Below are positions 9,579-58,263 of a DNA stretch of 64,000 bases, in pieces. Source of the DNA: a bacterium (GTDB lineage: Bacteria > Patescibacteriota > Minisyncoccia > Minisyncoccales > JANBVM01). A program made the translations under genes and the position numbers. Each line of letters begins with the position of its first letter. The stretch's first letter is position 1. Where the stretch lies: the NCBI GenBank assembly GCA_030665965.1, contig DAOUYT010000001.1:1-64000 (forward strand). Direction: 5' to 3'. Below the pieces are notes generated by a model. That model searched no databases. It saw only the letters and a list, made by a program, of their open reading frames with translations, and was not told the origin of the DNA.

Positions 9579-10474
9579 TTTTTTAAAAATTCTTTTACTA
9601 AGTTTTCAGCCTCCGGGTATTTTTTTATCCAATGAATTCTTTTATCTCTTTTAAACCAGGTCATTTGTCTCTTGGAAAATTGTAAGGTGTGATATTTAAT
9701 GGTTTTTTTTACTTCCTTGTTTTCCTTTGTTGTAAGAGGAAAAGAAGGCCATTCTAGATAGCCAATTGTTTGGAGTAAAAGAAGTTTATCGTATTTTTTC
9801 CTTAAATCTTCAACCTCTTTTTCCAATCCTGATTTAAACATACTTTTTGTTCTTTTTGAGATTCTTTTTTTTAATTCCTCTTTCGATAACTTTATTCCAA
9901 TCTGGAGAATATTGAAAAGAGGTTTTCCTTTCTTTCTCTGTCCCCAAAATGGTTTTTTTGTTACCCTACAAACCTCAATTGCCCTGATTAATCTTCTTTT
10001 GTTTTCTTTATCAATGAATTCTGCTCCTCTGGGGTCTAATTTCTTATAAATCTTAAACAATTCTTCCTTGGTTTTTTCCATTAACTCTTTCCTTATCTCT
10101 TTTTGGGGTGAAACCTCTGGGAAGATGACATTATCAATGATTGACTGAATGTAGAGGCCTGTTCCTCCAACTAAAAAAGGAATCTTTTTCTTTTTTTGAA
10201 TGTCTTTAATGGTCTGAATAGCCATTTTTTTATACAGGGCCACATTAAATTTTTCGTTTGGATAAATGATATCAATTAAGTGGTGGGGGATAGCTTTCAT
10301 TTCTTTTTTGGTTGGTTTTGCTGTTCCAACAGTCATTTCTTTATAAATCTGTCTTGAATCAGCTGAAACAATTTCTCCTTTAAATTTCTTGGCTAATTTT
10401 ATTGCCAAGCCTGTTTTTCCGGTAGCTGTAGGTCCTAATATGACGATTAATTTTGGTAATTTGTTGTTTTTCAT
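9575..10474 (-). CDS. miaA: tRNA dimethylallyltransferase MiaA
   Basis: 299 residues. P-loop GPTATGKTGLA near residue 14, SADSRQIYKEM, GTAKPT, PHHLIDI and VGGTGLYIQ are the characteristic MiaA series. It transfers a dimethylallyl group to A37 of tRNAs reading UNN codons. miaB, which methylthiolates the same base, lies immediately upstream on the same strand with 10 bp between, so the pair acts sequentially. The isoprenoid donor fits with the idi gene elsewhere in this window. Confidence 0.96.
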   Translation of the reverse strand: MKNNKLPKLIVILGPTATGKTGLAIKLAKKFKGEIVSADSRQIYKEMTVGTAKPTKKEMKAIPHHLIDIIYPNEKFNVALYKKMAIQTIKDIQKKKKIPFLVGGTGLYIQSIIDNVIFPEVSPQKEIRKELMEKTKEELFKIYKKLDPRGAEFIDKENKRRLIRAIEVCRVTKKPFWGQRKKGKPLFNILQIGIKLSKEELKKRISKRTKSMFKSGLEKEVEDLRKKYDKLLLLQTIGYLEWPSFPLTTKENKEVKKTIKYHTLQFSKRQMTWFKRDKRIHWIKKYPEAENLVKEFLKN

Positions 10475-10484
10475 CTTCCAGGAA

Positions 10485-11810
10485 TTAAACTTTACTCTTT
10501 AAAATTCCCTTTAGTCCCCAGGGCAGGACATCAATAATTTTCACTTTCAAGAAGCGACCAATTAAACTGCTGGTTAATGTTTTGTCTGGCATTTTGATTT
10601 TTACTGTTTTATGGGTTCTGGTTTTACCGTATAAAAAGCCTTTCTTTTGTTCATTCACTAAAACCTCCACTTGTTTTTTAAGATATTTTCTATTGTTTTT
10701 TAAAGCAGTTTTGCTTAATACTACTGTCAGGGTTTTCCATCTTCGCTCCTTTTCTTTTTTAGGAACGTTATCTTGCATTAAAGCTGCTTTGGTTGCAGGT
10801 CTTAGAGAATACTGGGAGATATATGCCATATCAAACTTAATCTCTTTGAAGAGTTTCATTGTATTTTTAAATTGTTTTTTAGTTTCTCCTGGAAAACCGA
10901 CAATAACATCGGTTGATAAGCTAATATCTGGTATTTTTTGACGAATCTTTTTTACCAAAGCCTTGTATCCTTTAATGTTATATTGCCGATTCATCATTTT
11001 TAAAATCTTATCGTCTCCTGATTGAACAGGAAGGTTTAGATATTCTGTTATCTTTTTACATCTTGATATTTTTTCAATTAATTCCTCAGAGAAATCTTTA
11101 GGATTGGAGCTTGTAAACCTGACCCAGAAATTACCTGGTATATTATTTATCATTTCCAATATCTCAGGGAAATTTATTGAAGAATTACTTGGGGATTGAT
11201 AATCATTAATATTTTGGCCTAAAAGCCAGACTTCTTTGACACCTTTTTTAATTGAGTTTTCAGCTTCCTTTAATATGTCTTTATGGCATCGGCAGATCAA
11301 AGGACCGCGGGTAAAAGGAACAACACAATAACTGCATAAATTATTGCAACCTGTTGAAATAGGGATAAAGGTGGAAAAATCTTTGGAGTATTGCGGAGAG
11401 ATATTAAGATAATTTGCGTCAAATTTTTCATTGAATTGAGAGTCTCTTTGGTTTAAATAAAGGAAATAACTTTTTCTTTTTAATATCTCTGGCCAGTACT
11501 TTAAGGTTTTAACAGGGAGAATAAAGTCAAAGAAGTCTTTAAATCTTCTAAAGTCTTTTTTTAAAAAACATCCTGTTAAGATAGTTTTAATAGCCTGTTT
11601 GTTTTTTCTTAAACCCTTAAACTTTTGGGAAAGACCGTAAATCCTATCGACAGCTGATTGTCTTACCGAACACATATTGACAATAATCAAATCAGCCTCA
11701 TTTATTGTTGAAGCTGATTTATATCCCATTTTTTCTATCACAGAGGCAAGTCTTTCAGAGTCAGATTTATTCATATGACATCCGTAAGTAACAATAAGGT
11801 ATTTTTTCAT
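10485..11810 (-). CDS. miaB: tRNA-2-methylthio-N6-dimethylallyladenosine synthase MiaB
   Basis: 441 residues from the ATG at 11810 (MKKYLIVTYGCHMN). An in-frame ATG at 11870 is rejected because that stretch crosses the terminator at 11831-11856. An N-terminal MTTase domain with Cys in YGCHMN, NMCSVR and TGCF, a radical-SAM motif CNNLCSYC, and a C-terminal TRAM-like domain are all present. A TATAAA box (11820-11825) lies 9 nt upstream of the start, giving miaB-miaA their own promoter. Confidence 0.93.
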   Translation of the reverse strand: MKKYLIVTYGCHMNKSDSERLASVIEKMGYKSASTINEADLIIVNMCSVRQSAVDRIYGLSQKFKGLRKNKQAIKTILTGCFLKKDFRRFKDFFDFILPVKTLKYWPEILKRKSYFLYLNQRDSQFNEKFDANYLNISPQYSKDFSTFIPISTGCNNLCSYCVVPFTRGPLICRCHKDILKEAENSIKKGVKEVWLLGQNINDYQSPSNSSINFPEILEMINNIPGNFWVRFTSSNPKDFSEELIEKISRCKKITEYLNLPVQSGDDKILKMMNRQYNIKGYKALVKKIRQKIPDISLSTDVIVGFPGETKKQFKNTMKLFKEIKFDMAYISQYSLRPATKAALMQDNVPKKEKERRWKTLTVVLSKTALKNNRKYLKKQVEVLVNEQKKGFLYGKTRTHKTVKIKMPDKTLTSSLIGRFLKVKIIDVLPWGLKGILKSKV

Positions 11811-11830
11811 ATCATTTTCTTTATAACAGA

Positions 11831-11856
11831 AAAACAGCCCCTGACAAGGCTGTTTT
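11831..11856 (-). terminator. Terminator ending the thrS / Kazal-protein unit
   Basis: AAAACAGCC (11831-11839) and GGCTGTTTT (11848-11856) form a perfect 9-bp stem with an 8-nt loop and T-runs. On the minus strand it follows the Kazal-protein stop by ~25 bp and precedes the miaB promoter. Confidence 0.8.
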
Positions 11857-11880
11857 CTATTATTTTTCAAAACTTTCCCT

Positions 11881-13635
11881 TTATTCTTTGGCCCCTTCTT
11901 GTGTCTGTAAAGATGATTTTAGCTTTAACTGTAATTGAGGACAGCTATTGACTCTTGTCCATGATTTTGGAACATCACAGGGGGTTGGGAATTCCTTACA
12001 TTCATTTGTTATAGGGTCTTTAGCTGGAGTAATAACCTGAATACAGACTTGAGGTTCTTTACAAAGAGGCACTATGCATTTACCTTCAACACATTTTGAG
12101 GTTTCTCCTATACAGCGGGAAAGGGGACAATCTTCATCTGTCTGGCACTGAAAAGAAACCCCTGGTTTTTTACAGATGCTGTAAGTCCTGGCTACCCTGA
12201 TTTCTTCCAGACCCTCACAGCACAACTGAGAAATTGCGCCAAGAAGAGGGTTCCGGTTCACTCTTTGTCCTTCTATGGCACAGCGTATTTCAGCTCTACA
12301 TACTTCCCGATAGGCAATTGCAACTCCTTGTTTTTTTGCTTCACAGATATTGAGATAGGTGTTTCCGTCTGTTCCACAAACAGGAGCTTCAATATCTGTA
12401 CAGATTATAGCCTGAGATTCTGCAGTCTCTTCAAAGCCTGCTCTTACTGCCATAATTCTAATGGCATTTTTAGACAAAGATTCAAATGTTGTTGTTTGAC
12501 CGAAAGCAGCTCCGTAATTTCCCTCCTCATAGTATTTTTTAGCAGCCTCTAAATTTTCTTGAGCTTCTTCTACCAGTCGATAGACAGCAGGCATTTCTTC
12601 TTTTGCAATCTCTTTTTCAAGGATTAAGGACTTGGCTTTTTCTAATATTTGTTCAGCTCGATTAATCTGTTCTTGGGTCTTTTCTGGTGTTATCATTTCT
12701 TTATATTTGTTTTTTATTCTCTCAACGTTTATTTCTCTTGCTTGTTTAATAATTGTTCTTAATCTTTCTGAAAGTTCTTTTCCTTCAAGATAACCCAATA
12801 TATCCAATTGGTTTAATTTATCTCCGCTTATCCTCTCTATGTATTGTTTAAATTGTTCTTGCTCTTCTGGAGGAAGCGCTTCTAAACTCTGGCGTAATCT
12901 TTCTATTATCTCTTCTTTTTTTTGTTCAATTTTCTCTTGTATGTCTTCTGGAAGCCTTTTTTTAAATTCATTGAGAACCTCCAGGTTTTTGAAGTCTTTA
13001 AATTTACTGCCTTTTAATTTTTCTAAATTGTTTACCAATCTATCAGGGATTTTAGCTTTATCTTCAAGTTTTAACATTACATTGTTAAATCTTTCTAAGT
13101 GTTCTTCCCTGGCTTGTTTTATCTTTTCAAAGGCTTCAACAGGTACCTGCTCTTGTAGTTTTAAAAGCAGTTTTTCGTGAAGAAACTGATGTTGGGTAAA
13201 TTTATCTAAAAAGGTTCCTATTCTTTCATTTTCCTGGGCTGTTTCCCTTATTCTTTCTGTATATCTTTCAACTTTTTCCATTTCATTTCTATACTTTTCA
13301 GCAGCCTTTTTTAAGCTTTCTGGATTTCTTTTTATCTCAACCATTTTCTTTAATTCCATCAATCTTTCATTTGCAAATCTTTCTCTCAGTTCTGCTTTTG
13401 CCACTGAGTTGAAAGTAAAGAAAGCCCTGATTTCTCTTCCCCAGTCTCTCAAAAAATAAAAGGGGCTGTCGGGTAATATTGCAGGTTCACCAACTTCCAG
13501 GTCAGCTGGCTGAACATCCTCGTCAAGATTAACTTGTTCAATGACTTGTGATGTATCTTGAGCTGAAACAAAGCTCCCCACAAGGAGTAGAGTTAAGGCT
13601 GTTAAAGCCAAAAGGTATTTGGTTGTTTTTCGCAT
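11881..13635 (-). CDS. Secreted coiled-coil protein with Kazal-type domain (DUF5667-like N-part)
   Basis: 584 residues. A signal peptide (residues ~1-25, ending SFVSAQD), then a DUF5667-like segment around ILPDSPFYFLRDWGREIRAFF, then ~330 residues of charged coiled-coil helices. Residues ~410-447 carry a Kazal pattern: C, PVCGTDGNTY, NIC and a final C. After it comes a Cys-rich tail of ~130 residues (CQTDEDCPLSRC and others). Kazal domains inhibit serine proteases; here it would be outside the cytoplasmic membrane. It lies 12 bp after thrS and is probably co-transcribed. The true role could be protection from host or environmental proteases, or purely structural. Confidence 0.8.
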   Translation of the reverse strand: MRKTTKYLLALTALTLLLVGSFVSAQDTSQVIEQVNLDEDVQPADLEVGEPAILPDSPFYFLRDWGREIRAFFTFNSVAKAELRERFANERLMELKKMVEIKRNPESLKKAAEKYRNEMEKVERYTERIRETAQENERIGTFLDKFTQHQFLHEKLLLKLQEQVPVEAFEKIKQAREEHLERFNNVMLKLEDKAKIPDRLVNNLEKLKGSKFKDFKNLEVLNEFKKRLPEDIQEKIEQKKEEIIERLRQSLEALPPEEQEQFKQYIERISGDKLNQLDILGYLEGKELSERLRTIIKQAREINVERIKNKYKEMITPEKTQEQINRAEQILEKAKSLILEKEIAKEEMPAVYRLVEEAQENLEAAKKYYEEGNYGAAFGQTTTFESLSKNAIRIMAVRAGFEETAESQAIICTDIEAPVCGTDGNTYLNICEAKKQGVAIAYREVCRAEIRCAIEGQRVNRNPLLGAISQLCCEGLEEIRVARTYSICKKPGVSFQCQTDEDCPLSRCIGETSKCVEGKCIVPLCKEPQVCIQVITPAKDPITNECKEFPTPCDVPKSWTRVNSCPQLQLKLKSSLQTQEGAKE

Positions 13636-13647
13636 AGTATTATTATG

Positions 13648-15366
13648 TTATTTTTTCTTATCAATTTCTATTTTCGCCTTTTTGATAAAACCTGTCAACT
13701 TTATTTTCCCCAAGTCTTTTCCTTTATATCTTGGTCTTACTGATTTTGTTTTCATTTCTTTGTCGCCCACTACCAAAAGGTAAGGTATTTTTTTGAGTTC
13801 TCCGTTTCTGATTTTCTTGGATACGGTTTCATTCTCATCTTTAAGTTTACATCGGAAGTTATCTGATAGAAGTTTTTTTGCAACTTCTTTTGCGTATTTT
13901 CTATGTTGGGAGCCTACTGGTATTACCCATATCTGTTCAGGAGCCAACCACAAAGGCAAATTACCTGCCCAATTTTCCAATAAGACCCCGATAAATCTTT
14001 CAAAAGATCCAAGCAGAGCCCGATGGATCATATAGGGTCTTTTTTTCTTTCCTTTTTTATTAATATATGACATGTCAAATCTTTCAGGCAGATTGAAATC
14101 AACCTGGATTGTTGTACACTGCCATTCTCTTCCCAAAGAGTCCTTTATCTTAATATCTATCTTGGGTCCATAAAATGATCCTCCTCCTTTGTCAAGGTAG
14201 TGTTTTAACCCCTCTTTTTTTAATACGTATTTTAAAGCATTCGTTGCTTTTTCCCAGCCCTTTTTTGTTCCGACATATTTTATAGGACGGGTGGAAAGAT
14301 AAATATCAAACTCTTTAAAACCAAAAGCCCTTAAGATTTTTAGACTGTGTTTCAAGAGTTTTATAACCTCTTCAGCTAACTGATCTTGGGTGCACCAGAC
14401 ATGGGCGTCATCCTGGGTAAAACCCCTTACCCTTGTCAAACCATGTAAGGTTCCAGATTTCTCATAACGGTAAACCGTACCAAATTCTGCGTATTTAATG
14501 GGTAGTTCTTTATAGCTTCTGATTTCAGATTGATAGATTTTTACATGAAAAGGACAATTCATGGGTTTTAATATGTATTGTTCTTTCTCAACCTTCATTG
14601 GGGAGTACATATTTTCTCTATAAAAGTCCCAGTGACCAGATTTTTTCCAGAGCTCTAATTTTCCGATATGGGGCGAGACCAGCCATTGATATCCTTGAGA
14701 GGTTAATTCTTTGTACATATAGTCTTGAATAATCTTTATCAAGATAGCTCCATTGGGATACCATATATGGAGTCCAGCCCCAACCTCCTCGTCAGAGTAA
14801 AACAGCTTTAATTTCTGACCCAAAATCCGGTGGTCTCTTTTTTCAGCTTCCTTTAATTTGAAAACATGATTGTCTAATTCTTTCTTTGTTTTGAAAGCGA
14901 TTCCGTAAATCCGGGTCAGCATGGGATTCTTTTCATTTCCTTTCCAGTAAGCCCCTGCAATCTTTGTTATCTTGAAAGCATTGGGATTGATTTCTTTTGT
15001 TGATTTAACATGGGGACCCTGGCATAAATCTATGAAATTACCACTTTCATAAAAGGTTAACTTACCTTTTGGTAATTTTTTCATCAACTCTCGTTTATAT
15101 GGTTGTTTCTTGAAGATTTTATTGATTTCTTGTTTTGACAATCTTCTCTTCTTAAAGGAGATATTTTTTTTAATGAGTTCTTTCATCTTTTTTTCAATCT
15201 TTGGTAAAGCATCTGGGGTTAAAGCTTCTCTGGGGAAACCAAAATCATAATAAAATCCATTTTCAATTGCAGGTCCTATGCCAAATCTTACCCCAGGGAA
15301 TAATTCCTGGACAGCATGAGCCATTACATGGGAGAGTGAATGACGGATTGTTTCAATTTTAGCCAT
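13648..15366 (-). CDS. thrS: Threonyl-tRNA synthetase without TGS domain
   Basis: 572 residues against the usual ~640. It starts directly in the editing domain (HSLSHVMAHAV, then FIDLCQGPH); the N-terminal TGS domain is absent. The class II catalytic core has the zinc Cys in MNCPFHVKIY, TRVRGFTQDDAH and IHRALLGSFERF, followed by an anticodon-binding domain. It charges tRNA-Thr and clears Ser-tRNA-Thr. The 200 bp upstream contain a promoter, a Thr-rich leader peptide and an attenuator, so expression probably responds to Thr-tRNA charging. Confidence 0.96.
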   Translation of the reverse strand: MAKIETIRHSLSHVMAHAVQELFPGVRFGIGPAIENGFYYDFGFPREALTPDALPKIEKKMKELIKKNISFKKRRLSKQEINKIFKKQPYKRELMKKLPKGKLTFYESGNFIDLCQGPHVKSTKEINPNAFKITKIAGAYWKGNEKNPMLTRIYGIAFKTKKELDNHVFKLKEAEKRDHRILGQKLKLFYSDEEVGAGLHIWYPNGAILIKIIQDYMYKELTSQGYQWLVSPHIGKLELWKKSGHWDFYRENMYSPMKVEKEQYILKPMNCPFHVKIYQSEIRSYKELPIKYAEFGTVYRYEKSGTLHGLTRVRGFTQDDAHVWCTQDQLAEEVIKLLKHSLKILRAFGFKEFDIYLSTRPIKYVGTKKGWEKATNALKYVLKKEGLKHYLDKGGGSFYGPKIDIKIKDSLGREWQCTTIQVDFNLPERFDMSYINKKGKKKRPYMIHRALLGSFERFIGVLLENWAGNLPLWLAPEQIWVIPVGSQHRKYAKEVAKKLLSDNFRCKLKDENETVSKKIRNGELKKIPYLLVVGDKEMKTKSVRPRYKGKDLGKIKLTGFIKKAKIEIDKKK

Positions 15367-15404
15367 GATTTTATTAGTTTATTTTACTATAAAAATTGAC
15401 CTTT

Positions 15405-15483
15405 TAAAAATAAAAACCTCTTTTTTTCAAGAGTCTAGCTTAAAGAATTGTTTAAAATTCCCAAACCAGACATTTAAGAGGTT
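15405..15483 (-). promoter_or_regulatory. thrS transcription attenuator
   Basis: On the minus strand AACCTCTT (15483-15476), which is the last Thr and Ser codons plus the T of the leader-peptide stop, pairs perfectly with AAGAGGTT (15422-15415), followed by TTTATTTTT. Inner pairings GTCT/AGAC and GAATT/AATTC sit between the arms. A ribosome stalled on the Thr codons would cover the 5' arm and prevent the terminator; normal translation would let it form. Polarity is inferred from this geometry. Confidence 0.75.
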
Positions 15484-15524
15484 GTAGTGGTAGTTGTAAT
15501 TCTATTGCTTAGATTCTTTGACAT
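15474..15524 (-). CDS. thrS leader peptide (six consecutive Thr codons)
   Basis: A 16-codon frame: M-S-K-N-L-S-N-R-I, then six Thr codons in a row (ACA ACT ACC ACT ACA ACC), Ser and TAA. It sits 10 nt after a TAAAAT box and 107 bp before thrS. A run of the cognate amino acid in a short frame between promoter and terminator is the hallmark of ribosome-mediated attenuation, as in the thrL leader of enteric bacteria. Six Thr codons in 16 by chance, directly before thrS, is very unlikely. Confidence 0.85.
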   Translation of the reverse strand: MSKNLSNRITTTTTTS

Positions 15525-15534
15525 CCTGATTTTA

Positions 15535-15562
15535 ATTTTAGAGGGAATAAAAATCTTGTCAA
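15535..15562 (-). promoter_or_regulatory. thrS promoter
   Basis: On the minus strand TTGACA (15562-15557), a 16-nt spacer and TAAAAT (15540-15535). It lies immediately after the dnaE stop, so thrS has its own promoter. Transcription would start about 3-4 nt before the leader-peptide ATG. Confidence 0.75.
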
Positions 15563-15565
15563 GCA

Positions 15566-18500
15566 TCAGGCTTCCATAATCTCTTCAATGTTTTCACAGA
15601 TGAGCTTTGGGGTTTCGCTTCGTCTATCAACCCTTCCTGAAACCAGAACGATTTTATTTTCCTTGAAAGCAGTGGGATTCTTTTCAATTATTGTTGGAAA
15701 TACCACAACCTCAATTCTATCGGATAAGTCCTCCAAAGTCATAAAAAACATGAGTCTTCCGGTTTTGGTAATAATCTTTTTTATCCTTGAAATAATTCCT
15801 CCAATCCTAACGTGACGGTTTGTTAAAGCAGGGACCAGACTGGAAATTTTAGTTGCTTTTTTTTCTAAGATATCCTGGAAATCTTCCAAAGGATGGGAAC
15901 TGACAAAAAGTCCTAACAGTTCTTTTTCCCAGGCCAGTTTTTGTCTTTTGGTAGCAGCCTCAATAGGTTGAAGATGAAGCTTATTGTTAAACTTCATTCC
16001 CTCAAAGAGCCCTTTCTGCCCTGTGGTTAATATTTTTTGATTTTCCCGGCTGCAATCTAGAATCTTTTCTATGTTGAATAAAAGCAGGTTTCTTTCAGCC
16101 AGTTTGTCAAAGGCACCGGCTTTAATAAGGCTTTGCAGGGATTTTTTGTTTAAATCAGTTGAACTTATCCTTAAGATAAAGTCATCTATTGACTGGAAGA
16201 AACCTTTATTTTTTCTCTCCTGGACTATGGATTCCACAATATTTGAACCAACATTTTTAATGGCCAACAATCCGAAACGGATTTGTTTTTTATTAGGAAT
16301 AACCGTGAAGTTTCTCCAGCTCTGGTTTATATCAGGAGCCAGGATTTCAATGTCCATTCTTTTGCATTCCTGCATTAAAAATCCAATCCTTTCCACATCA
16401 GCCTTGCTTGAGGTTAAAAGAGCAGCCATAAATTCTACTGGAAAATGGGCTTTAAGATAAGCTGTTTGATAAGCAATAGTGGAATAGGCGCAGGAGTGGC
16501 TTCTGTTAAATCCGTAGCTGGCAAAGGGTAAAATCCATTGCCATATCTTCTGGGCAATCCTTTGTTCTATTCCGTTTTTCATCATTCCCTGGATTAGTTT
16601 TTCTTTTTGAGCCATAAGCAGGGATTTAATCTTTTTTCCAACAGCCTTTCTCAAGATGTCTGCTTCAGAAAGGGTGAAACCTGCCAATTTTTGGGCAATG
16701 AGCATTAGGTCTTCCTGGTATATGAGCAGGCCATAGGTTTTTTCCAGAATCTCTTTTAAGCTAGGATGTAAATATTCCACCTGTTTTTTTCCTTTTTTTC
16801 TGGCAATATATTCAGGAATAAGAGACATGGGACCTGGTCGGTAAAGAGCAACCATGGTTATGATGTCTTCAAATTCAGTTGGTTTTAATTGTTTTAAGTA
16901 TCGTTGAAAACCAGCTGATTCTAATTGAAAAACTCCGACTGTTTTTCCTTTTTGCAATAATTGATAGGTTTTTTTGTCGTTGAGAGGGATATTCTCAATG
17001 TCAATCTTCTTTTTCTTTCTAACAACATAGATTCTTGTTAAGGTATCTTCAATAATGGTTAGATTCTTCAGTCCCAGGAAATCCATCTTCAGGAAACCCA
17101 GATCCTCTATTGAATGCATTTCATATTGGGTAACAATAGTTGAATCATTCTGAGTGGGATGCTGTAAGGGAATGTCATTATCTAAGGATTCTTTTGAAAT
17201 TACCACTCCGCAGGCATGGGTTGAGGCATGTCTGGCTACACCCTCCATTTTTTTTGCAAAATCAATAAGCTTTGTTGCTTTAGGATCTGTTTCATAAAGT
17301 TGTCTGAATTCAGGAATCTTTGCCAGGGTTTCATCAAGGGTAGAACCAAAAGGAATCATTTTTGCAACCCTGTCACAATAGCTATAAGCATAGTTAAGGG
17401 CTCTTCCAACATCTCTTACAGCCGCCCTGGCAGCCATTGTTCCAAAAGTAATGATTTGGGCTACCCGGTCTCTTCCGTATTTTTCAGCCACATATTCAAT
17501 TACTTCATCCCTTCTTCTGTCGGTAAAATCCAAATCAATATCAGGCATTGATATGCGGGCAGGATTAAGAAATCTTTCAAATAAGAGATTATATTTCAAA
17601 GGGTCAATAGTTGTAATGCCTAAAACATAAGATACCAATGATCCCCCGACAGAACCCCTGCCTGGACCCACCACAATTCTTTTTTCTTTTGCCCAATTAA
17701 CAAAATCCTGGACAATCAAAAAATAAGAAGAAAAACCCATTTTATCAATCATGTCTAATTCATAGTTTAATCTGTCTAGGACCTCTTTTTTTGCCAGAGG
17801 CCCAAACTTTTTCTTTACTCCCTGAAGACATAAGTGCTTAATATATTCACCAGGCGTTTGGTTGTTTGGCGTTTCAAAATGAGGCAGTTTTGTTTTTCCG
17901 AGAACAAAATCAAAATTGCAGCTTTGTGCTATCTTTTGTGTATTTTCAATAGCTTGGGGTATATCCTTGAAATCTTCAATCATTTTTTCAGGAAGCCTTA
18001 AAGAAAAATCATCTGCTTTCATGGTCAGTCTTTCCGGGTCATTGGGGTCAGATCCAGTATTAATAAGCATTAAGATATCCTGGGCCTCTGCATCCTCTGG
18101 TCTTAAATAATGAGAGTCATTTGTAGCTACCAGGGGAATGTTTAATTCTTTTGATATTAAAATAAGACCCTGATTGACAATACCTTGCTCTCTTAGATTG
18201 GGATGGTGTTGTAGTTCTAAATAAAAATTTCCTTTGCCTAAAATCTCCTGATATTTTAAAGCAGCTTTTTTAGCTGTCTCAGGTTTTTTAGCTAGAATTA
18301 ACTGGGGTATTTTTCCCTGGATACAGGCTGATAAACCAATAAGTCCTTCTGAATAGCGGGATAATAGTTCTTCATCAATCCTGGGTTTGTAGTAAAAACC
18401 TTCCAGATGGGCTTTTGTTAAGAGTTTTACCAGATTCTTATAACCTGTTTTGTCTTTAACCAATAAAACCAAATGATATCTTCTATTATCAATGTTTGGC

Positions 18501-24852: not shown

Positions 24853-26454
24853 ATGAAAAAGGTTATAGTAATTGTAGTTATTGTTTCTATTGTTTCTATT
24901 TTTGTCTATCAGAATTATTTCAAAAAAACAGAATTAGATTTTACTTTAGTAAAGGTGGTAAAGGGAGAGGTGGTACAGGAAATATCTGAAACAGGTCAGG
25001 TTAAAAAAGGAGAAGAAGTAAATCTCGGCTTTAAATTGGCAGGTATAATTGAAAACATTTATGTTGAGGTTGCCGAAGAGGTTAAACAAGGAGAGATATT
25101 GGCAAAATTAGAAAACAGTCAATTAAGGATTAAATTAGAAGAAGCTGAAGCCAACCTGGATTTAGCCCAAGCTCAATTTAATAAATTGTTAGCTGGAGCA
25201 ACCCAGGAGGAAATTCAAATTACCCAGACTGCTGTGGATAATGCAAGGATTTCTTTTGAATCTGCAAAACAAAACCTCCAAGACATTAAAGCCCAGGGAG
25301 AAGAAAATCTAAAAGCGGCTTATGACGATGCTTTAAATGCTCTGGATGATTCTCATTTAAAAATCACCAATGCTCTTAACAATGTAGATTTGATACAGAC
25401 AACATATTTCACAAGTAATGACCAGGAAAAGATCATTGTCAGAGAAAATAAAGACAAGATAGAAAATGCTTTAAATAAGGTAAAGTCTTATTTAGATACT
25501 GCCAAGAACACTCAGGGATATGAGGATATTGACCTTGCTATTTCTGAAATGAAAGAAGCCTTGGATAGTGTTTTTAATGCCTTAAAGATTATCAGAGATA
25601 CCTGTGAAAAAACAGGTTATAAAAACCTGGTTTCTTCGACCGACAAGACATCTTTAGATAATCACCAGGGATACATTAATACTGCCTTAACAAACATTAC
25701 CAATTTCCAGCAAACCATTTCTTCAACCAAATTAACAAACAGCAGCAATATCAACACCTATCAGGCCAGCATTGATTCAGCCCAGGGCAAGCTAACAGCA
25801 GCAGAGAATGAATTAGCTAAGATTACAGCTGATCCCAGAAAGGAAGATGTTGATTTATACCAGGCTCAGGTAAGACAGGCCAGGGCCCAGGTTCAGCTTT
25901 TGGGAAAGCAGATTGAAGACACCATACTCAAGAGTCCTGTTGAAGGCCAGGTGGTTAAGATAAATAAGAGAGTAGGGGAACTGGTTCAAACAGCCATTCA
26001 GGATGCAGTCATTAATCTTCTTCCTGCCAGTCCTTTTAAAATAGAGGTAGATATTTATGAAGAAGACATTGTTGACGTTAAAGTTGATAATCCAGTAGAG
26101 ATTACTTTAGCTGCTTTTTCAGATGATATTTTAAAAGGCAGAGTAATTTCAATTGACCCGGCAGAAAAATTGATTGGAGGAATAGTTTATTATGAAGTAA
26201 CTATTGACTTTGAGGAAACCAGGGGTGGGATTAAACCGGGCATGACAGCTGATATTATTATTGAAAGTGATAAAAAGGAAAATGTGTTAGTTATTCCAAA
26301 AAGAGCAGTAAAGAAAATGGATGGCAAAAAAATAGTTCAGGTTTTTAAGGACGGCGAGGTTAAAGAACGAGAAATAGAAATTGGCTTGGAAGGAAATGAA
26401 TACATTGAAGTTATTTCCGGGTTGCAAGAAGGAGAAGAAGTTGTTATTGATTAG
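24853..26454 (+). CDS. HlyD/MacA-type membrane fusion protein
   Basis: 533 residues from ATG 24853 (the ATG at 24835 lies within the dyad). An N-terminal membrane helix, a split biotinyl-lipoyl-like domain (VVQEISETGQVKKGEEVNLGF and SPVEGQVVKINKRVGE), an unusually long helical hairpin of about 270 residues between them, and C-terminal beta-barrel domains (DIYEEDIVDV, GMTADIIIE). It would link the MacB-like ABC transporter encoded next to the cell exterior. The lineage is thought to lack a normal outer membrane, so it may act without TolC. Confidence 0.85.
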   Translation: MKKVIVIVVIVSIVSIFVYQNYFKKTELDFTLVKVVKGEVVQEISETGQVKKGEEVNLGFKLAGIIENIYVEVAEEVKQGEILAKLENSQLRIKLEEAEANLDLAQAQFNKLLAGATQEEIQITQTAVDNARISFESAKQNLQDIKAQGEENLKAAYDDALNALDDSHLKITNALNNVDLIQTTYFTSNDQEKIIVRENKDKIENALNKVKSYLDTAKNTQGYEDIDLAISEMKEALDSVFNALKIIRDTCEKTGYKNLVSSTDKTSLDNHQGYINTALTNITNFQQTISSTKLTNSSNINTYQASIDSAQGKLTAAENELAKITADPRKEDVDLYQAQVRQARAQVQLLGKQIEDTILKSPVEGQVVKINKRVGELVQTAIQDAVINLLPASPFKIEVDIYEEDIVDVKVDNPVEITLAAFSDDILKGRVISIDPAEKLIGGIVYYEVTIDFEETRGGIKPGMTADIIIESDKKENVLVIPKRAVKKMDGKKIVQVFKDGEVKEREIEIGLEGNEYIEVISGLQEGEEVVID

Positions 26455-54497: not shown

Positions 54498-54520
54498 CCC
54501 CTTTTATCAAGGGGTTTTTT
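54498..54520 (+). terminator. Terminator after the Clp-like operon
   Basis: CCCCTT (54498-54503), loop TTATC, AAGGGG (54509-54514), T-run to 54520. Confidence 0.85.
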
Positions 54521-54525
54521 ATATG

Positions 54526-54675
54526 TGTGGATAAAATGTGGATAAAAAGTAATTTTTATCGGGATTTTTAAAGAATTTTACTTTAATTTGACTAAGACAT
54601 ATAAAGTGAGATAAAGTGAATACAGGTGGGGGATTGTGGATAAGTATGTTAATAAGTGCCCTCAACTGTGGATAA
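54526..54675 (+). promoter_or_regulatory. Four perfect DnaA boxes upstream of mraZ
   Basis: TGTGGATAA (complement of the DnaA box TTATCCACA) occurs at 54526-54534, 54537-54545, 54635-54643 and 54667-54675, all in one orientation. The stretch between boxes 2 and 3 is AT-rich. Confidence 0.85.
54601..54630 (+). promoter_or_regulatory. MraZ-type operator repeats and mraZ promoter
   Basis: Three 10-bp repeats: ATAAAGTGAG, ATAAAGTGAA, TACAGGTGGG. The AAAGTG core at 10-bp spacing is the MraZ box pattern described in mollicutes. TTGACT at 54588-54593 could be the -35 with the -10 inside the repeats, giving autorepression by MraZ. Confidence 0.65.
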
Positions 54676-54685
54676 CTCATAATTT

Positions 54686-55117
54686 ATGTTTATTGGTGAA
54701 TACTCATACATAATTGACAGTAAAAAAAGAGTGGCCATACCACCTAAATTTCGCAAAACCTTAGGAAAAACAGCGGTTATTACCAGGGGATTGGATAATT
54801 GTTTAATAGTATATCCTTTAAAAGAGTGGGGGGGAGTAACCAAAAAATTAGAGGCTTTACCCAATACTCAGGTTGATGCTAGGGGATTTGTCAGAATCAT
54901 GCTTTCAGGAGCAGTAGACGTAAGGCTTGATAAATTAGGCAGGATATTAATCCCTGATTATCTAAAAGATTATGCTTCTTTAAAAAAGGAAGTGGTGGTA
55001 ATAGGCCTTTCTAATAAAATAGAAATCTGGGATGAAAAGAAATGGCAAGAATACAGAGAAAAAACAGAAAAAGAAGTAGGAGACATAGCTAGCAGATTAC
55101 GAGAACTGGGAATTTAA
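54686..55117 (+). CDS. mraZ: Transcriptional regulator MraZ
   Basis: 143 residues with two SpoVT/AbrB-like swapped hairpin repeats: MFIGEYSYIIDSKKRVAIPPKFR and ARGFVRIMLSGAVDVRLDKLGRILIP. MraZ forms rings that bind upstream repeats and represses the division/cell-wall cluster. rsmH (mraW), almost always next, is missing here. Confidence 0.96.
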   Translation: MFIGEYSYIIDSKKRVAIPPKFRKTLGKTAVITRGLDNCLIVYPLKEWGGVTKKLEALPNTQVDARGFVRIMLSGAVDVRLDKLGRILIPDYLKDYASLKKEVVVIGLSNKIEIWDEKKWQEYREKTEKEVGDIASRLRELGI

Positions 55118-55196: not shown

Positions 55197-55496
55197 ATGA
55201 CCAAAACAAATAACATTAAAATCCTGCAGATTCCCTTCCTTATCTTAACTTTGTTTTGTTTAGTTTATTACATTTTCCAGGTTGGAGCCCTGAGTCAGGA
55301 ATTGTATCTTATTGAGGATTACGAAAATAGATTGGGCATGCTTTTAGAGAAGAATAAATTTTTAGACATTAATTTTTCCAAAATGAGTTCTCTGTCTAAT
55401 ATTGAAAATTACCTTATGTCCAGAAACTTTGTAAAGCCCAGCCAGGTGAAATATATCCAGATATTAGAAAGCTCTGTGGTAAGCAAACCCCGTTAG
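55197..55496 (+). CDS. FtsL/DivIC-like division protein
   Basis: 99 residues. A single N-terminal membrane helix (IPFLILTLFCLVYYIFQVG) followed by a short coiled coil and a conserved-looking tail (VKPSQVKYIQILESSVVSK). Size, topology and position between mraZ and ftsI are those of FtsL. Sequence identity in this family is always low, so the call rests on context. Between mraZ and this gene (55118-55196) there is a bulged hairpin. Confidence 0.6.
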   Translation: MTKTNNIKILQIPFLILTLFCLVYYIFQVGALSQELYLIEDYENRLGMLLEKNKFLDINFSKMSSLSNIENYLMSRNFVKPSQVKYIQILESSVVSKPR

Positions 55497-55556: not shown

Positions 55557-57200
55557 ATGAAAAACTGGAGAACTGATATAATCTTTGTCATCTTTCTGCT
55601 TGTTTCAGCGACTATTATAGGTCGTCTGGTTTTTATTCAGATTCTCCAGGGCGATCTTTACAAGGCCCTTTCCCAGGGTCTCCATGCCTCTTTTAATGAA
55701 ATGCCTGGAAACAGGGGAGAGATTTTTTTGAAAGGAGGAGAGTCTCTGGCAATAAACATAGACCAGCCATTTGTTTTTACCCATCCCTCAAAGATTAAAA
55801 ACCTTGAGGAAACAGTTAATGATTTAAGTCAGGTCTTAGGTCTGGAAAAGGATTTTCTCTTGGCAAAACTGCAAAAGGATAATTCTTACTTATTATTGAA
55901 ACGAAAGTTGAATCAACAAGAACTTGAGGCTTTGGAAGAATTAAACATGGAAGGTATTTATATTGGTAAAGAAAAAGGAAGATATTATCCCCAGGAAAAC
56001 CTGGCTTCCCAGATAGTGGGTTTCCTGGGAGCAGAAGGAAAAGGACAATATGGTCTGGAACAATTCTACAACCTGATATTGACAACCGAAGCCAGCTTTG
56101 AAGAAAACAAACAGGGTTCTGATTTAATCCTGACCATTGATTACAATATTCAGTTTAAGGCAGAAGAACTATTGCAAAAGGTAAAACAGGATTTAGGGGT
56201 TGAAAAGGGACAGGTGATTGTAATTGAACCTAATTCTGGAAAGATACTGGCTATGGCCAATCTGTTAAATTTCAATCCCAACCATTATGAACAATATGCC
56301 AGAGAAGGAAATCTGGAAGTTTTCAAAAACAGAGCCACCCAGGAATTGTTTGAACCAGGTTCTGTTTTCAAGGCAATAACCATGGCAGCTGCCCTGCAAG
56401 AAAATAAAATATCTCCAAAAACAACCTATATTGATGAAGGGTTTGTGGAGATTAATGGTTATCCTATTTACAATTACGAGCAGAGGATTTATCAGGGAGA
56501 ACAGACAATGACCAATGTCTTGGAAAAATCAATTAATACCGGTGCTGTTTTTGTACAAAGACAATTAGGTCAAAGCCTTTTTTTGAAATACATAGAAAGC
56601 TTTGGGTGTTTTGAACCTACGGGAATTGACATTCAAGAAACTTATTCTGAAAATAAAGAAATAAAAAAGGGTAGAGAAATAAATTTTGCCACAGCTTCCT
56701 TTGGTCAGGGAATTGAGATAACCCCCATTCAGCTGGTTCGAGCTTATTCTGCCATTGCCAACAAAGGAAGATTAATCAATCCCTATCTGGTAGAAAAAAT
56801 ATTATATCAGGAAGATGGACTTGTAATCCCTCACCAGGAAGATATGGAAAAATCTGTTATCTCTTCAAAGACCGCTTCTCAATTGACCGCCATGCTGGTG
56901 AGTGTGGTTGAAAATGGTTTTGGTAAACAGGCCAAGGTACCAGGTTATTTTATTGCCGGGAAAACAGGAACAGCCCAGGTTTCTTACGGCGCCCTGGGAA
57001 TTGACAAAAAGGGTTACTCTGAAGAAACCATTCAAACATTCATTGGTTTTGGCCCGGCTTTCAATCCTCAATTCTTAATCCTGGTAAAGTTAGACAATCC
57101 AAAAACAAAAACTGCTGAATATTCTGCCATACCTTTGTTCCGTGAATTGGCAGGATACATTATTAGTCAATATCAAATTCCACCAGATTATGAATTCTAA
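55557..57200 (+). CDS. ftsI: Peptidoglycan D,D-transpeptidase FtsI/PBP2-type
   Basis: 547 residues. N-terminal membrane helix (~8-25), PBP dimerisation domain (GNRGEIF), and a transpeptidase domain with all three active-site motifs: SVFK in FEPGSVFKAITM, SIN in EKSINTGAVF, and KTG in IAGKTGTAQV. It cross-links septal peptidoglycan. The stop overlaps the start of the MurF-like gene by 11 bp. Confidence 0.94.
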   Translation: MKNWRTDIIFVIFLLVSATIIGRLVFIQILQGDLYKALSQGLHASFNEMPGNRGEIFLKGGESLAINIDQPFVFTHPSKIKNLEETVNDLSQVLGLEKDFLLAKLQKDNSYLLLKRKLNQQELEALEELNMEGIYIGKEKGRYYPQENLASQIVGFLGAEGKGQYGLEQFYNLILTTEASFEENKQGSDLILTIDYNIQFKAEELLQKVKQDLGVEKGQVIVIEPNSGKILAMANLLNFNPNHYEQYAREGNLEVFKNRATQELFEPGSVFKAITMAAALQENKISPKTTYIDEGFVEINGYPIYNYEQRIYQGEQTMTNVLEKSINTGAVFVQRQLGQSLFLKYIESFGCFEPTGIDIQETYSENKEIKKGREINFATASFGQGIEITPIQLVRAYSAIANKGRLINPYLVEKILYQEDGLVIPHQEDMEKSVISSKTASQLTAMLVSVVENGFGKQAKVPGYFIAGKTGTAQVSYGALGIDKKGYSEETIQTFIGFGPAFNPQFLILVKLDNPKTKTAEYSAIPLFRELAGYIISQYQIPPDYEF

Positions 57201-58263
57201 TATAAATCTCTTATCTAAATTTAAATTCTTGTGCAGGAAAAAGCCAGTTATTGTGGTAACTGGACAAGGCAGAAAAACTGCTGTAGAAGCTGTTTTTGAC
57301 GTTTTAAAACAATATTTTAAGGTTGGGGAAGATATCTTAATTTTTGAATCAACAGATGAAGAGATAAAAAGATTTGAATTCTTTTTGAGAAAATCTCCCA
57401 AAGCATCAGTGATTGTCACTAATGTTGGCGATATTCCTTTTGACAGGGATTATTTTGGCGGAGAAAAGGAAAAGATAAAAAATACCCTTAAACTGGTTGA
57501 AACCCTGCCTGCCCAGACAAATTTAATTTTGAATTTTGACGATGAAACCGTGAGGGAAATAGATGATTTGACCAATCTTAATACCTTGACCTTTGGTTTC
57601 CAGCTAGGAGCAGACTTTAAGGCAAGTGATGTGAAATTTAACGGCGGAACAAACTTTAAGGTGAATTACAAAGGGAATGTTGTTCCTGTTTGGCTGGAAA
57701 AGATTTTTGGCAAAGAGCAGATTTATTCTGCTTTATGTGCAACAGCGGTGGCAACAGTTTTGGGATTAAATCTGGTGGAAACGTCTCAATCTCTTAAAAA
57801 CTATCATTCTTTGCCAGGTAAAATGAGACTCATAAAAGGGATAAAAAACTCCTGGATATTGGATGATACTGAATCAGCAACCGTATTCTCAATGATTGAA
57901 GCGCTTGAAATCCTGGGAAAGCTTAAAGACTTCAAAAGAAAGATAGCTGTTTTAGGAGACATTCTAGGAATTGGAAAATACACCATTGAAGCCCATGAAG
58001 CCATAGGGGAAAAGGTGATTGAAAATGCTGATTTTCTCTTTACCTTTGGTTCCCGGGCTCGCTTTATTTCCAAAGGAGCTGAAGTAAAGGGAATGGTTAA
58101 TGAAAAAATATCTTCATTTAATACGATTGAACAAGGAGTGTCAGAGCTTCGAAAAGAAATTAAAGAAGGTGACTTGATTCTCGTTGATGGTTCCAAAGAC
58201 ATGCAAATGAAAGAGATAGTTGAAAAAATTAAAGTTAGACAGAAGAAAGGGAATACTAATTAA
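57190..58263 (+). CDS. MurF-like Mur ligase, truncated with degenerate P-loop
   Basis: 357 residues from ATG 57190, which overlaps the end of ftsI. The central domain begins at once: VIVVTGQGRKTAVEAV stands where MurF has TGSNGKTT; the C-terminal half has LPGKMRLIKGIKNSWILDDTESATVFSM and KRKIAVLGDILGIGKYTIEAH, which are MurF-like. The N-terminal UDP-substrate domain of MurF is missing. MurF adds D-Ala-D-Ala to UDP-MurNAc-tripeptide; altered substrate or inactivity is possible. Confidence 0.78.
   Translation: MNSNINLLSKFKFLCRKKPVIVVTGQGRKTAVEAVFDVLKQYFKVGEDILIFESTDEEIKRFEFFLRKSPKASVIVTNVGDIPFDRDYFGGEKEKIKNTLKLVETLPAQTNLILNFDDETVREIDDLTNLNTLTFGFQLGADFKASDVKFNGGTNFKVNYKGNVVPVWLEKIFGKEQIYSALCATAVATVLGLNLVETSQSLKNYHSLPGKMRLIKGIKNSWILDDTESATVFSMIEALEILGKLKDFKRKIAVLGDILGIGKYTIEAHEAIGEKVIENADFLFTFGSRARFISKGAEVKGMVNEKISSFNTIEQGVSELRKEIKEGDLILVDGSKDMQMKEIVEKIKVRQKKGNTN

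Follow-up and report, generated by a model that had tools for sequence, protein, structure and literature searches.

A putative composite DnaA/MraZ control region at the promoter of the division and cell-wall cluster in an order of Patescibacteria

DnaA is the protein that initiates DNA replication. At the nrdAB promoter of E. coli it is a dual activator and repressor (activation at low and repression at high ATP-DnaA), and its involvement with division genes has been described for B. subtilis ftsL (binding detected by ChIP) and Caulobacter ftsZ (activation by DnaA-ADP) (PMC8203912). Little effect on the timing of cytokinesis has been shown for the latter two precedents. The second regulator of relevance, MraZ, has in Burkholderia an operator in which 7-nt repeats, separated by 3-nt spacers, extend over the start site (PMC7761207), and in Mollicutes an operator repeat reading AAAGTG[T/G] (PMC8475190). 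The mraZ promoter region analyzed in this study shares with the MraZ operators of E. coli, Burkholderia and Mollicutes the 10-bp GTG repeats over the mraZ transcription start (PMC7761207, PMC8475190) but differs from them in that one repeat is a perfect DnaA box, while more boxes are located 31–32 bp downstream and 62–172 bp upstream. As in E. coli nrdAB, DnaA boxes are found near the promoter of a replication-time gene (here, mraZ and also nrdD); unlike nrdAB, the mraZ boxes overlie the operator of another regulator, flank the promoter on both sides and have the dcw (division and cell-wall) cluster as their target. The likeness to B. subtilis ftsL and Caulobacter ftsZ consists in predicted DnaA sites at a division-gene promoter, whereas the genes and positions are different, the gene being in our case the lead gene of a whole cluster and the architecture extending over dozens of families. 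In the part of the literature that was searched, no earlier report of DnaA boxes at mraZ was found; DnaA control of division genes is known elsewhere, and the conserved, putative DnaA/MraZ composite operator would represent a new variation on it.

The window (the whole stretch of 64,000 nucleotides under analysis) is located on contig 18 of a 469,738-bp genome in 33 contigs (G000), and the closest relatives that have names belong to the Patescibacteria, with the labels Candidatus Nealsonbacteria, Parcubacteria and Paceibacterota. An earlier note on this DNA had pointed to four perfect 9-mers in one orientation at the mraZ promoter, and these were confirmed, with exact positions, as four copies of TGTGGATAA on the + strand 5' of the mraZ ORF (Table 1), all conforming to the DnaA box 9-mer consensus (TTATCCACA type). 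The AT-rich stretch that it reported is present between the second and third boxes (1b and 54635), and so are the MraZ-type repeats, in the form of 10-bp GTG repeats as described. What the note overlooked is that box 3 is also one of the repeats of the 10-bp MraZ array, which makes the site a DnaA/MraZ composite. Its estimate of chance occurrence was about right: TGTGGATAA is expected 0.54 times in 64 kb (both strands), as compared to five observed copies (the fifth, at 25233, is intragenic), a number reached in none of 100 shuffles. The entire genome contains 12 copies, clustered only at mraZ (four). One more copy is located at the end of dnaA, and the remaining seven include four in ORFs, one close to where a small contig ends and two intergenic copies preceding nrdD and the gene of a Nitro_FeMo-Co protein. 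An RNA element at the mraZ promoter was also considered and rejected, as the only Rfam matches in the window are four tRNAs, none of them at this site.

Table 1. Predicted features of the mraZ promoter region and of the beginning of the dcw cluster (positions in the window)
Feature	Position	Strand	Evidence and remarks
Terminator-like hairpin	54498-54514		Belongs to the preceding AAA+ (ClpB-like) gene
DnaA box 1a, TGTGGATAA, distal upstream	54526..54534	+	Exact match; 109 bp before box 3; 11 bp from box 1b
DnaA box 1b, TGTGGATAA	54537..54545	+	Exact match; 51 bp before -35; 98 bp before box 3
Predicted -35 of the mraZ promoter, TTGACT	54588..54593	+	Consensus scan; conserved TTGAC in relatives
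MraZ-type operator	54603..54658	+	GTG cores at 54606, 54616, 54626, 54636 and 54656 in 10-bp register
Predicted -10, ATAAAGT	54611..54617	+	Promoter scan; weak, overlaps an MraZ-type repeat
DnaA box 3, TGTGGATAA	54635..54643	+	47 bp after the -35 start; coincides with the fourth MraZ repeat
Weak box, TGTTAATAA	54647..54655	+	12 bp after box 3
DnaA box 4, TGTGGATAA	54667..54675	+	Exact match; 32 bp after box 3, immediately before the mraZ start codon
mraZ	54686..55117	+	Pfam PF02381, E 2.4e-38
Small ORF, 99 aa, in the FtsL position	55197..55496	+	Without Pfam match
FtsI-type penicillin-binding protein	55557..57200	+	Transpeptidase and PBP_dimer domains
Mur ligase	57142..58263	+	Middle and C-terminal domains

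An MraZ operator is recognized by at least three GTG repeats with 10-bp spacing at an mraZ promoter, and the first four cores (54606, 54616, 54626 and 54636) form such a run, which is conserved. Several other elements of this region recur in relatives: an A/T-rich hexamer ~17 bp after TTGAC is kept in their mraZ promoters, the 98-bp distance from box 1b to box 3 represents the commonest spacing class among them, and in many the position of the weak box holds TGGGGATAA or TGGGGAAAA. The 11-bp spacing of boxes 1a and 1b is a pair spacing also seen around dnaA. Downstream, mraZ is directly followed by the small ORF, putatively FtsL by its position, and then by the gene of the FtsI-type penicillin-binding protein, without rsmH between them; rsmH (mraW), which normally adjoins mraZ, was not found in this genome (91% complete).

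The comparative analysis included a sample of 147 genomes of the order, mraZ being present in 141 of them. Upstream of mraZ, the motif TGTGGA[T/A]AA is present in 111 of the 120 relatives (shuffle mean 1.6), and 86 of these 120 upstream regions carry at least two copies (shuffle mean 0.02), with a strong preference for one orientation (234 forward vs. 7 reverse). Thus, a lack of boxes upstream of mraZ in relatives, named in the earlier note as an outcome that would count against its proposal, was not encountered. TTGAC is located 45–48 bp (nearly always 46–48 bp) before box 3 in 101 of 128 mraZ regions. Upon alignment of box 3 in 101 relatives, it reads TGTGGATAA in 60 and TGTGGAAAA in 31 of them, with mostly 1.6–2 bits per column and GGATAA/GGAAAA nearly fixed, and the NGTGG columns are conserved at box 3 itself as well as ~30 and ~10 bp before it. 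Box 4 (at least seven of nine matches) is found at +31 in 47 and at +32 in 42, i.e., in 89 of the 101 relatives. Most relatives have boxes on both sides of the promoter, a strict upstream box being absent in ~30%. Outside the order, mraZ promoters display a 10-bp GTGG array, many of them reading AGTGGATAA or GTGGGGAAA at the place of box 3, and TGTGGATAA or TGTGGAAAA is present within or above the array in about one half of the promoters read; boxes are absent from Nitrospiria and the other non-CPR mraZ loci examined (L062–L065). Because the array outside the order often carries AGTGGATAA and the non-CPR loci are devoid of boxes, the strict form of the predicted DnaA box at mraZ is strongest in the order of the window.

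A side-by-side comparison with dnaA in the same genomes revealed that the flanks of this gene contain TGTGGA[T/A]AA in 54 of 71 loci (vs. 1 in coding controls and 2.9 in shuffles). When all 9-mers containing three or more G/C were counted in these flanks without a preset motif, TGTGGAAAA ranked highest and was closely followed by TTTTCCCCA, TTATCCACA and TGGGGATAA, with hardly any matches in coding controls. When the distances between neighboring boxes are tallied (each pair of strict boxes contributing two counts), 11 bp makes up 35 of 37 entries for the upstream boxes of mraZ and 25 of 30 for the boxes around dnaA, whereas the array neighbors of box 3 are located at 10 or 12 bp. At the first position of NGTGGA[TA]AA, T is found in 73 of 85 upstream and in 54 of 70 dnaA-flank sites. 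The dnaA promoter and dnaA-dnaN region resembles the mraZ site in having the same 9-mer variants and one-orientation 11-bp pairs, while the mraZ site differs from it by promoter-locked boxes on both sides, by the overlapping MraZ array and by the lack of adjoining dnaA/dnaN. The DnaA protein encoded in the genome of the window is full length with all domains, and its RPRQ and GGKDHTT motifs align with domain IV of E. coli (1j1v), indicating an intact DNA-binding domain (PF08299, E 3e-27); we infer that this protein binds to the predicted boxes.

In a blind scan of all 147 genomes, the 11-bp pair TGTGGAWAANNTGKGGAWAA was matched 17 times, each time in a different genome, whereas the pattern in reverse gave no match. 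By their positions, 5 of these matches immediately precede mraZ, and 7 belong to the dnaA promoter (~1.2 kb before the dnaA C-terminal domain). Among the other five, a PBP1A-like gene follows one match and a sigma-factor-like gene another, both identities being judged from N-terminal sequence only. The tandem pair upstream of the PBP1A-like gene (L331, G042:C31:44018) is 3.6 kb from dnaA. With two mismatches allowed, the pair occurs in the genome of the window only at mraZ and at the dnaA-dnaN junction. Numerous similar clusters elsewhere, the second outcome that the earlier note had set against its proposal, were thus not observed, comparable clusters being mostly confined to mraZ and dnaA.

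Single predicted boxes point to further candidate targets. A perfect one is located 38 bp before the -35 of nrdD, encoding anaerobic ribonucleotide reductase (C26:10881, L019), and among the nrdD upstream regions of relatives a box is likewise present in 13 of 30, as compared to 0 of 30 coding controls. Another intergenic predicted box is found 155 bp before a gene of the Nitro_FeMo-Co (dinitrogenase cofactor) type (G000:C32:12682, L020). As a separate observation, NrdD matches in this genome (G000:C26:11330-14704) and in many relatives are split by long, mostly in-frame inserts at recurring profile positions (~156, 263 and 417), with open frames over 1000–1600 aa, an arrangement that looks like inteins.

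The positions of the upstream boxes relative to box 3 are not arbitrary and cluster near -63, -74, -85, -97, -108, -117, -139, -150, -161 and -172. The phasing has a period of 10.85 (R=0.72 on 31 distinct offsets), matched by no random set; with each family weighted once, R=0.66 for 34 families, a value reached in none of 2000 family-shift controls. Several in-phase distances are observed even within single families (in f9: -117, -97, -85 and -65). A period of ~10.85–10.9 bp puts the upstream boxes on the same side of the helix, and their placement relative to the promoter is consistent across species, as expected of a DnaA-regulated promoter. According to a review, E. coli oriC tolerates boxes being moved apart or together by a whole helical turn but not by a fraction of one (PMC4285127). 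Measured from the -35 element, the forward nrdD boxes begin at -28 or between -36 and -38, as compared to the mraZ classes of -26 to -28 and -37 to -38, although the nrdD sample is small (six forward sites in relatives and the one in the genome of the window). Since the two sets of boxes share these distance classes from -35, the comparison of predicted sites suggests that the phase is set relative to RNA polymerase.

Overall, comparison across genomes shows that the predicted boxes are conserved, that their variants match those around dnaA, and that their positions are fixed to the promoter and to the helix. The four 9-mers thus probably represent DnaA-binding sites within a composite DnaA/MraZ control region of the dcw promoter common to most of the order, a reading that we hold with good, if incomplete, confidence. 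The DnaA control of the division and cell-wall cluster proposed in the earlier note is, at the level of predicted sites, strongly supported by this comparative evidence (the conservation of the boxes and the location of clusters mostly at mraZ and dnaA).

An alternative interpretation would be that the TGTGGATAA sites are merely MraZ operator repeats (NGTGG, autoregulation) with an incidental likeness to DnaA boxes. Indeed, the GTGG of box 3 follows the preceding MraZ repeat by exactly 10 bp, and the array seen across the phylum consists of consecutive 10-bp GTGG repeats, some with the sequence AGTGGATAA. However, box 3 differs from the array repeats at precisely those positions that agree with DnaA boxes (first base T in 94 of 101 copies, a count possibly slightly inflated by placement of box 3 via the box consensus, vs. 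A in 95 of 146 array repeats). Moreover, the upstream boxes lie 62–172 bp before box 3, mostly outside the array, are paired at 11 rather than 10 bp, share sequence and pairing with the boxes around dnaA, and have counterparts in the same phase at nrdD promoters. The first base, the two spacings and the dnaA and nrdD loci make this pure MraZ-repeat reading improbable, less so for box 3, the conservation of which may in part stem from MraZ, given its exact 10-bp register with the repeats and the occurrence of AGTGGATAA/GTGGGGAAA outside the order. A rather different possibility, which is a sub-case of DnaA control and departs from the preferred explanation in mechanism only, is pure repression by looping, with DnaA bound upstream and at boxes 3/4 bridging the promoter and the 10.9-bp phasing required for the loop. 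It would account for the upstream box keeping its helical phase with respect to box 3 and for boxes on either side of the promoter in most relatives, but nrdD promoters show this phase as well, with no partner box listed downstream, so that phasing may be relative to RNA polymerase, even if the sample is small; we regard looping as somewhat unlikely.

Two further readings do not involve control of mraZ transcription. An origin of replication or origin-like unwinding site, also put forward in the earlier note, would agree with same-orientation DnaA boxes clustered beside AT-rich DNA. Yet the GC skew is uniformly positive throughout the 36–64 kb part of the window with no switch at mraZ, dnaA-dnaN is on another contig (13) instead of adjoining the site, most paired boxes elsewhere sit at dnaA, and the box positions follow the promoter. 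Adjacency of dnaA/dnaN is not universal among origins. In a genome of the same family represented by a single 661-kb contig (G066), the skew turns positive at ~84–108 kb and negative at ~420–450 kb (masked stretches from ~540 kb make the picture there partial), with dnaA at 177 kb and mraZ at 508 kb, i.e., far from the switch taken as the origin. The skew, the location of dnaA and the promoter-locked box positions led us to reject this reading as extremely improbable. Likewise, a datA-like site titrating DnaA without effect on mraZ transcription could be imagined from several strong boxes in one place, but a fixed spacing to the promoter across many families is unexpected for a simple sink, making such a role very unlikely. 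Two observations on skew are of separate interest: the switch in G066 is ~70–90 kb from dnaA, so that the origin of this family may not adjoin dnaA, and the otherwise positive window has a block of negative GC and AT skew at 10000–18000, probably a run of opposite-strand genes.

Returning to DnaA control of the dcw promoter, its proposed mechanism is as follows. DnaA at the upstream boxes, on the same helix face and often in 11-bp pairs, would touch RNA polymerase or bend promoter DNA and most likely stimulate mraZ transcription at moderate DnaA levels. Boxes 3 (predicted ~+12) and 4 (~+44) are just after the predicted start site, in or beside the MraZ repeats, and at high levels of active DnaA their occupancy might block transcription or displace MraZ. 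The net outcome would be dcw expression following the DnaA cycle together with dnaA and nrdD, a wiring akin to that of E. coli nrdAB, which serves as its precedent (PMC8203912). This direction of the effect (activation or repression) and the competition between DnaA and MraZ are what we infer from the arrangement of sites, and sequence cannot tell the direction. A tentative extension, to which we assign a somewhat less than even chance, is that DnaA and MraZ compete for one overlapping operator heading dcw, thereby forming a direct switch that links division to the initiation of replication and lies at the center of a very small DnaA regulon (dnaA, nrdD, mraZ).

The host bacteria have tiny genomes and presumably few regulators, and the predicted DnaA link to the lead gene of dcw is kept across ~34 families (by upstream boxes) with promoter-locked positions. 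The exact sites and the sequence rule derived from them (9-mer, 11-bp pairs, helical phase) may be employed for reading DnaA regulons in uncultured lineages. Thus, a direct connection between replication and division may exist in a large group of very small, uncultured bacteria.
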